From Thermosynechococcaceae cyanobacterium YX3bin19 (GTDB lineage Bacteria > Cyanobacteriota > Cyanobacteriia > Thermosynechococcales > Thermosynechococcaceae), in NCBI GenBank assembly GCA_030447595.1, contig JAUJON010000006.1, forward strand, positions 1-64,000: DNA of 64,000 bases. The letters run 5' to 3'. A program made the translations under genes and the position numbers. This document shows positions 37,318 to 42,048 of the stretch, piece by piece (the stretch's first letter is position 1; each line of letters begins with the position of its first letter). The notes beneath the pieces are model-generated. The model saw only the letters and a list, made by a program, of their open reading frames with translations, did no database searches and had not been told where the DNA came from.

Positions 37318-37372
37318 ATTAAACTCAGCGAGTCCCTCACGGAACCCGCTGGTCTTCAGAACCGTGCTTGAG
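37318..37372 (-). mobile_element. Outer group II intron, 3' end (3' half of domain V and domain VI)
   Basis: CTCAAGCACGGTTC TGAAGACCAGCGGGTTCCGTGAGGGACTCGCTGAGTTTAAT: completes the domain V stem started at 39824 and forms a 10-bp domain VI hairpin. Confidence 0.75.
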
Positions 37373-39802
37373 GTAGGGTAGGCGACCAACGAGTTACCAT
37401 TGCTGGCACTTTTCCAATCGCCCCCCTCCAAACGACGCATGACCGTTTCCGTATCACGTCGCTCTCCAGTAATCTCAACATGAAAGGGCTTTGCCGTCAT
37501 AGCGCCCATACTGAATTTTGTGATGACATTCCAGGCACACCACCAGTGTTTTGCGGCGGCGTGCAGTCATCTTTTTCATCCAGTCTGGTCGTTCTGATTT
37601 TCCCTTTTGCGCCACGTCTGCTAGTTTGCGGATGTGGTGGACTTCAATCTTGTCCGTTGAGCCACAAAGTTCACATTTTTGGGCTAAGAGACGTTCAACT
37701 ACCTCACTACGGTTGCTCCAAATTCGACTATGACTGACATCATCATCGAGTGCGACCCACTTATTCCAATGCAGAGGGATTGCTCCAAAATGAGCTTTCA
37801 ATGGCTTCTTGGAGTCCCGATTGACCTTTACCTGAAGTACCTTGTAGGTACCCTCTTTGATGGTGATGGTGGTGGAGTATCGTCGGTAAATTCTCTGGCA
37901 GGAAGTTTTGAACTTGTTTGCCAGGGTCTTCACCAACGATAATTCCGTGACTCGTCGAAGCTTTCCCAGTGAGTGGAGGTTGTAAGCCATGCGGTAGTAT
38001 TGGACAACTCCGCGATACTCCGCCTGGTATTGGGACATGATGCTATACACATCATCGTTGATTCGCTGCGCGAGATGAATGGGTTTTCCCTTCCGCATGT
38101 ATTTTGCACAACGTGCGTTTTTCACGCTTGCAGGAACGCGAAGTCCGACACTGCCGTTGATGCAGCGTTGACCGCGATGGTCATGCTTGTCATCGGCGTG
38201 AAGGATGTGGATTTCGTACCCCAGGAATCGAGCCTTCTCGTCCCGCGCATGGGTAACGAGTGTCTTTTCATCACTGAGTTCTAGCTTCAACTGGGTGCGG
38301 AGAAACGCAGCCAGTTTTTGCTTGATTTCCACGGCTTCTGCTTTGGTTCCCACCAGTCCCAGCAGGAAGTCATCGGCATACCTCGTGTACCAGAGACGTC
38401 GAAAGTTCGGGTCGTGGGGGGCACGCGACGGGATTTTCTGAGCTTCACGGCTCAACCGTCTTGCTTCTTCCAGGTTCCCTTGTTTTCGAGCGTCTGATGC
38501 CGCGAAGGTTAGAGCGACATAGGGAGGGTTTGTTCTTCGGCGTTTGCCACGCGTGTAGACCGGAGTGAGTTCGCGCTCGACAAATTGATCTAACCTGTCT
38601 AGCACGAGATTGGATAAAATCGGGCTCACGACGCCACCCTGCGGGACTCCGCTGTAGGTAGCATTGTATTTCCAATTCTCCAAATAGCCTGCACCCAGCA
38701 GTCCATCGATAAGCCGAATGAAGCGATTGTCGTGGATTTTCTCGCGCAGGATGTTTAACAGAACAGTGTGATCTATCCTGTCAAAACACGCGCTAATGTC
38801 TCCTTCGATAAACCACTTTGTGCCTCGACCTTTCTGTGTGACATCACGCAAGGCAGTGTGGCAACCTCGCTTCGGTCGGAATCCGTGGGAATGATCACTA
38901 AACTGAGGGTCGTAGTAGGCTTCCAAAATCAGACGGATCACTTCTTGGAGAAGCTTATCCGACCAAGTAGGCAGCCCTAGCGGTCTCCGTTTGTGATTCT
39001 TCTTGGGAATGTAGGTGCGACGCACTGGCGTCCATCGATACCGCTCATAGCGCAGAGCTTCAATCAGGGTATCAATCTTTTCCAGTGACATCCCATCTAC
39101 TGTTTCCGTCGTCGCACCCGGTGTCATCGCCCCAGCGTTGCTGGACAGCTTGGCGTAAGCGCGAAGATACAGCTCAGGGTTGTAGAGCAGTCGATAGACT
39201 CCCTCCAGGGGCAACCCCTTGTATCCACGTTCACGTATGATGTTCAGTACCGTTTCGGCTGTTCGCATCTCGCGTACCTCACGATTTCTGTTTCATCCGA
39301 TTACCTGTTCCACTTCGCCCTGTAAACGGTTCTCCCGTTTGCCCTGGTGGGGCGTGACTCCCACGACTACTATTGGAACTCCGTCACCTTAGGACTCGCG
39401 TCCCTTAGGCAATCCCATGTTCCGTCACCGATGAACGAACTAGAGCGACTTAGGCTTCCCATTCATGCCCTTCAATGAGTTCATTACTCATTGCCCATTG
39501 ATCAAGGCGTACTACAGACGAAACTTTAATCCATAGCTATCAATGGCATCGGTGTACAGACGTGATACCGAAGGATGTGCACGACCATCACTGGGCATTA
39601 GGATTCAGGCAGTTTAGCTTTAGCCGTATCGCTCAGGCGTTGCGGGACTGTACCATACACGTCTTCTGTTCCATCCCGCTTTACAAACAGGCTCTTGTCC
39701 CCCTTCTCTTTCGAGTTAAGGTAAGTTGTTCACCTTGGAGTCAATTGCCTTGAACTCCAGCCAACTGAGTTGGCAATTCAATCAGTACGTACCATGGCGC
39801 AC
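37373..39802 (-). mobile_element. Inner group II intron, apparently full length (about 2430 nt)
   Basis: 5' end GTGCGCC at 39802; intron-encoded protein; domain V GAGCGACGTGATACGGAAACGGTCATGCGTCGTT (37431-37464, GAAA tetraloop); domain VI stem with bulged A; 3' end CCCTAC at 37373. Confidence 0.8.
37475..39268 (-). CDS. ltrA: Group II intron reverse transcriptase/maturase with C-terminal HNH endonuclease
   Basis: RRPLGLPTWSDKLLQEVIRLILEAYYDPQFSDHSHGFRPKRGCHTAL...YSGVPQGGVVSPILSNLVLDRLD...YTRYADDFLLG...CELCGSTDKIEVHHIRKL...LVVCLECHHKIQYG. Confidence 0.97.
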   Translation of the reverse strand: MRTAETVLNIIRERGYKGLPLEGVYRLLYNPELYLRAYAKLSSNAGAMTPGATTETVDGMSLEKIDTLIEALRYERYRWTPVRRTYIPKKNHKRRPLGLPTWSDKLLQEVIRLILEAYYDPQFSDHSHGFRPKRGCHTALRDVTQKGRGTKWFIEGDISACFDRIDHTVLLNILREKIHDNRFIRLIDGLLGAGYLENWKYNATYSGVPQGGVVSPILSNLVLDRLDQFVERELTPVYTRGKRRRTNPPYVALTFAASDARKQGNLEEARRLSREAQKIPSRAPHDPNFRRLWYTRYADDFLLGLVGTKAEAVEIKQKLAAFLRTQLKLELSDEKTLVTHARDEKARFLGYEIHILHADDKHDHRGQRCINGSVGLRVPASVKNARCAKYMRKGKPIHLAQRINDDVYSIMSQYQAEYRGVVQYYRMAYNLHSLGKLRRVTELSLVKTLANKFKTSCQRIYRRYSTTITIKEGTYKVLQVKVNRDSKKPLKAHFGAIPLHWNKWVALDDDVSHSRIWSNRSEVVERLLAQKCELCGSTDKIEVHHIRKLADVAQKGKSERPDWMKKMTARRRKTLVVCLECHHKIQYGRYDGKALSC

Positions 39803-40603
39803 ATTTTCACCCTCTACACGGCTCCTCAATGTCTTGGTGTTTGTCATACAGACCTTACTATTGAACCGTCTTTGGCGGTTTTTTCGTCGTGGCAATGTCG
39901 ATGGAGAAGCTGGATGTTTTGATATTCATCTTACCGCCTTTTGAGCGGGGGATGTGGTGGTCTTGTTCCATAACGTCTCCATCCCTTGAAGTAAAGGTTG
40001 CAGTTAGGCATTTTCCCTTTTGTCTTTTGAGAAGTTTTGAGGTTCTCATGTTGATCTCAGGGTATCTTCCCCATTCTCGTGCTCCAGTAAATCCAGTCGC
40101 CATCGTAAGATCTCTGTTGCTTTGTACTTTTATGTGTCTCGTTATTGGAGTTTCAGAGTGTTTGGCAATCATCTTTATTGAGTCCCCAACTTTGGTGGCG
40201 AATCTCCATCCTTTCCCTTGGTCTATTAACCAGTATTTGTTAACAATCCAATGCTGGTTTTTGTTGGGATGACGGTGATTTGCCCAGCTTCTGAGCTGTT
40301 GGTGAAGCCAGTTGTTCATTTGGGAATATGCGTCCGAGCTGACCACTGTTGAAAAGTAGTTGGACCATCCGGTAATAACCGGGGCAAGTTCGTTTATAAG
40401 CGCCAACTGAGTTGAAGCTTTGTGAACTCTGATAATTTCCTTTAACTTCTCAATATGTCTGCTAATGTTTTCCTGGCTTGGTCTAATGAGTGTTTTGAAC
40501 CCCAGTGCTTTTCCATTAGGTGCTCTTAGCGGTTTGATTCTTTCCAGATGGGAATTGTCTTACCGTAAATCCTAGGAAGTCAAACCCTTATTTCCCTCAA
40601 GCT
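39803..40603 (-). mobile_element. Outer group II intron, 3' portion (maturase X/HNH remnant and 5' half of domain V); 5' part missing
   Basis: GFDFLGFTVRQFP..., LALINELAPVITGWSNYFSTVVSSDAYSQMNNWLHQQLRSWANHRHP, KGKCLTATFTSRDGDVMEQDHHIPRSKGG; 5' half of domain V GAGCCGTGTAGAGGGTGAAAAT at 39803-39824. Confidence 0.8.
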
Positions 40604-42048
40604 CTAAGCTCGACTTTATCCATTAAGCAGCATAGCAAAGCAAGTCAGACCAAGTGTTGAAGAGGGCACGAGGACTTCCAACGTGTCTACATCGGTACTT
40701 GACATCTGAAAAGTCTGCATTTGCCAAAGCTGTTGTCTGACAAGCGCGAGCGCATCTGCAAATGTCGGTAGCGCCTTCTGATACCAAGCTGCTTTTGGCA
40801 GCTCAAACGGATGCTGCTTTTGCTGCTGATGGGCAACGACGGTCACGATTGAGAACAGCGCGAGTAGCGCAGGGTGGTGCGTACGATGGCCTGCGGTGAC
40901 CATTGACGCTGAGATTCAGCTGGGTAGATGAGCACGGGCTTCCTCAAAAGCGACTTCCACCTGCCATCGCAACCGAAACCATTGCAAGATTTGAACTGGC
41001 GTGGCCTTAGGTCTGTGCATAGGAGCGCCTGGGTTTCAAACTTCCCTTTGGGATCTTTTATCAAGACCCAGCGAATGGGCACAGCTGGCATCCCGGTTTT
41101 GTACCAAACTGCGGTTGCTGAGGTGATGTGCAGCGGATAGTCACCCCGACCATACCAGTCCTGCATCTCAACCGTCTGCCAAGGAGTGTAAGGGTTATTC
41201 ACAAGCGCTTTCAGAGCAGGCAGTCGCTTGCCCACCTTCCGGGGCCGTCCCATTTGTTTGGGGCGACGAAGCGGTGCTGGTTGGTAGAGTTGAGCATCTA
41301 AGCGTAAGCGAGTGATGATATGCGCTGGCCTGCTCATCTGGCAGAGTGCCCACAACAGCTCCAATGCGGCAAAGCTGCCATCGGTAACCACAACCATCGC
41401 TCTCGTCGGCAACCATCGCCTTGCCGTACCATCTGTCTGGCCCAATCCGTCAGCTGCTTGTGTCGATGATTTCGCTGTTCATGGTAGCGTTGCGAAGGGG
41501 CTAAGACGGTTAGAAACGGTAATGCCCAGACCCGTTGTGCCCAGGGAATTGGTACCAGAAGCATCAGGCTCAACCACCGCAGACCGCTGGCTTTGACCAA
41601 GTGGCTATTGCTGGAACGACCGGGTCACGATAGATATTTTTGGCTGCGATTTGCTTGCCCCGGCGACGCTCAATCGTATCGTCTAGCCCCATTACCAGCA
41701 CTCCCGTTGGTGCAAACACCGCTATCAAATGACGTAACAGGATGTGACAGGCTTTGTGGCTAGACCAAACTGCTCGGCTCAGCACTCGGTGGTAGTTCTG
41801 AAAATGCGGCTGCTCATGCAAACCCATCACGCGCAAAATTGCACTCACTGTTCGTTTCCCAGGTGCTAGGAATTGCACCCACAACCAGCACTAAAACTGT
41901 CTGCCAAATCCGCTGGGAAAACAACGGCGCAAACAGGACCATCAAGCTGAGAAATTCTTTGGTAGGCAATAACATCAGAACTCATTCAACATCACCGTTC
42001 TGATTTTGCTACCTTTTCTACTCACCAAATGGATAAAGTCGAGCTAAG
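40604..42048 (-). mobile_element. IS4/IS701-like insertion sequence, frameshifted transposase
   Basis: Terminal inverted repeats [CT]TAAGCTCGACTTTATCCATT (40604-40624) and AATGGATAAAGTCGAGCTAAG (42028-42048); transposase pieces VLVMGLDDTIERRRGKQIAAKNIYRDPV, MVVVTDGSFAALELLWALC, VRWVLIKDPKGKFETQALLCTDL-like. Confidence 0.82.

Follow-up and report, generated by a model that had tools for sequence, protein, structure and literature searches.

The locus at positions 37,318 to 40,603 of the window, the 64,000-nucleotide stretch of Thermosynechococcaceae cyanobacterium YX3bin19 that was analysed, raises the question of how one group II intron came to lie within the catalytic domain V (DV) of another. 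The original prediction described a single twintron. The nesting is present, but the locus is not a one-off; it is a case of a cross-phylum DV lineage with EBS/IBS pairing. The best explanation, and a highly probable one on the sequences compared here, is that a DV-specialised lineage homes into, and splices out of, the catalytic domain of other group II introns.

All of the window features given below are on the minus strand, and every string quoted in the original prediction was found there in its place. GAGCCGTGTAGAGGGTGAAAAT occupies 39824-39803, and the GTGCGCC of the inner intron begins at 39802. The inner group II intron (GTGCGCC...CCCTAC, 37373..39802) is 2430 nt long and ends in CCTACCCTAC at 37373, after which come CTCAAGCACGGTTC and then domain VI (DVI) as far as 37318. 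It has a GUGYG start and an AY end (GTGCGCC...CTAC). A covariance model had been proposed as a check, and the Rfam Intron_gpII (RF00029) match to the inner DV/DVI, at 45.1 bits with a cut-off of 40, stops exactly at 37373. A second copy, with the same ends but in another outer intron, gives independent confirmation of the boundaries. The intron's own DV was correctly located, but the 34 nt assigned to it (37464-37431) are best read as 35 nt (37430..37464). The inner ORF (37475..39268) is uninterrupted and encodes an LtrA-like protein of 597 aa, in which RVT_1 (RT), maturase, and HNH domains were detected. Residues 24-585 align with LtrA (E 8e-114), which is the closest among the solved group II proteins; T.el4h aligns only partially (3e-30). 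Judged by its protein, the inner element is an ML-type (LtrA-like) group II intron. A CL-type intron had been the first guess and was given up on finding the LtrA match.

The DV of the outer intron is split into a 5' half (39803..39824), which ends in the IBS1 GAAAAT (39808-39803), and a 3' half (37359..37372). The insertion point is 2 nt past the GAAA loop, so that the claim of a full-length group II intron lying precisely within the DV of another is borne out to the base. When GAGCCGTGTAGAGGGTGAAAAT and CTCAAGCACGGTTC are joined, they form a 36-nt DV, followed by a linker and DVI (37318..37358, ending in GTTTAAT); the same DVI occurs in uninterrupted homologs. The joined DV-DVI folds as exactly the two expected hairpins (z-score -6.5 versus shuffles). 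The joined DV is indeed longer than usual, as had been noted, but DV measures 35 nt in the closest uninterrupted outer relatives and 34 nt in the majority of the others. A search for uninterrupted outer homologs, also suggested at the outset, gave about 25 in which DV is intact, is mostly 34-35 nt long, and precedes a similar DVI; the closest of them read TGAAGACCAGCGG...CTGAGTTTAAT. The two DV halves of the window therefore belong together.

The rest of the outer intron is poorly preserved. Its maturase/HNH tail (39803..40604) reaches DV and is frameshifted. It borders on an IS element (40605..42047) that has a DDE_5-type transposase in broken frames and terminal inverted repeats, TTAGCTCGACTTTATCCATT, at 42047 and 40605, and the outer intron 5' of the middle of the maturase is gone. 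The 5' neighbour of the IS element is unrelated to the outer intron. With the truncation at the IS end and the frameshifts in what remains of the maturase downstream of it, the outer intron is a relic that cannot splice in cis. It had been argued that outer splicing would await inner excision; this does not apply to the truncated and frameshifted window copy. By position, the window holds a complete group II intron within another, the outer one being a 3' fragment only; structurally complete outer introns are found around some of the Wolbachia copies. The outer host in the window has since decayed.

A second inner copy is present in the same genome (G000:C355:3696-6122) and has the same ends. 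It is identical to the window copy at 2427/2427 shared positions and lacks 3 nt in the DV-DVI linker. It occupies the same DV point, but in a different outer intron, one whose protein is an open frame of 580 aa. The tails of the two outer introns have 72% DNA identity. At the sequence level, identical inner introns in diverged outer introns imply a recent, separate insertion, and recent mobility of the inner intron is likewise implied by the identity of its copies.

The site is not confined to this genome. In a sample of 80 related loci, the closest relatives of the inner intron start right after GAGCYGNRTG....GAAANN, the DV 5' half, and the DV 3' half resumes after them. The same DV position is occupied in relatives from Cyanobacteria (Scytonema, Nostoc, Fischerella, Brasilonema, and Pleurocapsales), Planctomycetota (Gemmataceae and Singulisphaera), Bacteroidota (Rhodocytophaga and Spirosoma), and Pseudomonadota (Massilia, Microvirga, Emcibacter, and an alphaproteobacterial MAG). 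In about 20 genomes the position agrees to the single nucleotide. In the protein tree, all 19 DV-labelled rows fall within one 26-row clade (support 98/99), and the site label changes 7 times, versus 17 with shuffled labels. The other members are L051, L064, L017, L031, L019, L022, and L092. Later data place L051, from Wolbachia, in a DV, and L064 has the DV 3' half. The outer introns are of various kinds. The best match of the outer proteins at L003, L006, and L030 is T.el4h, and that at L012 is LtrA. The Wolbachia outer protein (437 aa) is nearest to a group II RT/maturase of another type (7uim), and an endonuclease was not detected in it. The feature common to the outer introns is DV. When 387 genomes of the phylum were scanned for the DNA pattern, the only hits were the second copy of this genome and one match with 2 mismatches; the scan is a poor census, and the 36-nt window DV itself was missed by it.

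Some relatives are found elsewhere. L019, L022, and L092 belong to the DV clade, are at other sites, and have altered EBS1 and EBS2; L019 and L022 share one site, apparently in coding DNA. L081, another member of the clade, is probably also outside DV. A separate cyanobacterial clade with about 56% protein identity (L023-L029, L033, L034, L047, L053, and L054) sits between ...GATATTGAAAAGTGC and TTCGAYAGG, and these two flanks together encode the RT motif DIxKC|FDR found in the proteins of other group II introns. From these flanks it seems to be specialised on the RT gene. L048 is a member of that clade with different flanks. A more distant relative, L044 (Streptomycetaceae MAG), is at the very end of a DV (..CGTCCGGT|..CGGGAGG), which is a second DV site, different from the main one; its intron start is about 535 nt before its ORF.

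The pairing between intron and target can indicate how the site is recognised. EBS1 of the inner intron (AGTTTC, 39520..39525) makes 5/6 pairs with IBS1; in the inner introns of Massilia (L030) and Rhodocytophaga (L010), EBS1 pairs at 6/6. EBS2 (GTGCAC, 39577..39582) pairs weakly at the window site and well in relatives. The EBS/IBS test proposed for the inner intron thus succeeded across the clade and for the window EBS1, but the window EBS2 match is poor. Another EBS2 candidate, CGTGTAT, had been picked by hand and was given up for the segment found by scanning. That scan compared every position in the 5' region of the ribozyme with every offset in the target (7792 position pairs), with no site specified beforehand. 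Its top was EBS1 against -6..-1 (family-wise p 0.0015), and EBS2 against -13..-8 was among the top (0.0035), with shuffles that ignore relatedness in both cases. The scan recovers two pairings that covary across loci, EBS1 with IBS1 at the loop of DV and EBS2 with IBS2 on its 5' strand. There were 97/114 Watson-Crick pairs between EBS1 and IBS1, versus 77 in shuffled loci, and the joined flanks gave 7.65 of 8 pairs in the DV basal helix, versus 6.64 with swapped flanks (p = 5e-5 for each, relatedness ignored). EBS1 tracks the loop, being UUUC with GAAA, UCUC with GAGA, and different in members at other sites. The one-nucleotide delta-delta' pairing gave no signal (10/19, chance level). Both EBS1 and EBS2 pairing are weak at L003. 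The poor pairing there and in the window could mean that the target drifted once the intron was in place, or that the match was loose from the start; both are possible. In most clade members, the intron's own 35-nt DV matches its EBS1/EBS2 less well than the target does, the exceptions being the window intron, L003, and L014. This is only suggestive of self-avoidance of the own DV.

Wolbachia provides filled and empty copies of the same site. The single-contig genome G620 contains eight full inner copies, each of 2423 nt and all identical. All eight are within DVs, and they are spread over three different outer introns. Three uninterrupted copies of one such DV are also present, and their sequence is exactly that of the joined DV. 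The outer-intron sequence of the filled L183-L185 and that of the empty L203 are 100% identical for about 1.8 kb. The filled L190 and the empty L204 are identical for 2740 nt upstream and 616 nt downstream, the inner intron being the sole difference. From these pairs the insertion point is known to the base, and nothing was deleted or duplicated there. Some of the outer introns that carry the inner intron are complete, and for these the original splicing-order argument would apply. The same outer and inner pair is found at more than one genomic site (L183-L190), so it may also move as a composite. In the wOc Wolbachia (L195; G598:C134 and C143), one inner copy is outside any DV, after ..GCTATAAAACC. 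This site shares only the IBS1-like AAAACC, and the copy is a probable ectopic insertion.

A mechanism can be proposed from these data. The inner RNP would recognise the DV DNA of other group II introns. EBS1 would pair with the GNRA loop and two further nucleotides (IBS1, -6 to -1), EBS2 with the DV 5' strand (IBS2, -13 to -8), and the protein possibly contacts the AGC strand. The inner intron would then insert two nt beyond the loop. Splicing from RNA would restore DV exactly, so that the outer intron would not have to suffer and would still carry the site. To our knowledge, DV is the one sequence common to all group II introns, and any outer class can therefore be a host. The precise insertion, the recurrence of the site across the clade, the EBS/IBS covariation, and the filled/empty pairs can be read from the sequences; the retrohoming route, in vivo splicing, and any control of the outer intron are what we infer.

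Other histories could also place an intron in DV. An ancient twintron inherited vertically together with its outer intron would share the site by descent and not by targeting, and neighbouring clade members often do have related outer introns (L004, L006-L008, and L011). Such inheritance is very improbable, however, given identical inner copies in outer introns that are only 72% identical in DNA, or in three different outer introns of one Wolbachia genome. Nor does it fit outer proteins that vary from T.el4h-like to LtrA-like to endonuclease-less, or an outer intron that exists side by side in filled and in empty form. An isolated, ectopic insertion into a DV by chance would agree with the poor EBS2 pairing of the window copy and with the rarity of the arrangement in the phylum-wide scan. 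It has equally little to recommend it when the site is nucleotide-exact in some 20 genomes and in 8/8 copies of one genome, and when EBS and IBS covary. An assembly chimera of two intron copies is the least credible of all. Repeats often break assemblies, and G000 consists of 446 contigs; but the window copy is inside a contig of 70,676 bases, the second copy agrees with it, and the single-contig Wolbachia genome has eight cases.

DV is essential for catalysis. The inner intron could accordingly act as a gate, with the outer ribozyme active only after the inner one has left and with the composite moving or splicing under control. The interruption of a domain that catalysis requires would favour this, as would the complete outer introns that, with the inner intron in place, are not limited to a single genomic site in Wolbachia. 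The window outer intron is dead, however, targeting alone can explain the common site, and there is no sign of regulation. Gating is thus unlikely, though less so than the other alternatives, and homing of a DV-specialised lineage is preferred.

When one mobile element parasitises another, its target is usually a single host family. A lineage that recognises a conserved ribozyme core would have targets in any genome with group II introns, and harm would be small if the inner intron splices out cleanly. Target choice may thus be able to evolve toward a universal safe site. A wider reading, possible but short of probable, is that of a cross-phylum hyperparasite guild on DV that can enter any class of host intron, hitch-hikes and, through the break it makes in the active site, may set the time at which its host splices or moves. 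The natural filled/empty pairs are available for the study of intron-on-intron parasitism and ordered splicing.

The inner intron resembles Ll.LtrB and its LtrA protein, of the ML lineage, in its protein alignment, its GTGCGCC start, and the logic of EBS1/EBS2. The target of Ll.LtrB is a relaxase gene, whereas that of the inner intron is the DV of other introns. In the study of Methanosarcina acetivorans by Dai and Zimmerly, homing was reportedly into related intron ORFs and not DV. The account of these nested introns (Dai and Zimmerly, 2003) in PMC4424553 describes homing into sites conserved in other introns; like the lineage described here, they enter other group II introns repeatedly and in a site-specific way. 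The twintrons of Thermosynechococcus elongatus also arise by homing, again to conserved sites within other introns, and, like the window case, have identical inner introns within diverged outer introns (PMC2882425). Their inner introns, however, are without ORFs and are in DIV between two start codons, in one family and one genome; unlike the present lineage, they are neither in DV nor cross-class (PMC2882425). The Trichodesmium group II twintron is also cyanobacterial, and its sequential splicing was demonstrated; it is a single case with the inner intron in domain I of the outer (PMC4649490). Insertion into DV was described for the psbF twintron of the Euglena gracilis chloroplast (Copertino and Hallick, 1991), which, in the account of PMC8393795, is a single organellar case; here the lineage is bacterial and protein-coding, and many outer introns carry it at a single DV position. 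Wolbachia twintrons have been mentioned, with the site not given (PMC8919778). A DV-specialised lineage in bacteria was not found described in the open literature searched; single cases may be in subscription papers and intron databases, which are outside it. Published survey pipelines for bacteria either leave out twintrons (PMC4028801) or fail to recover the outer intron (PMC8919778); the DV pattern may have escaped notice for this reason.
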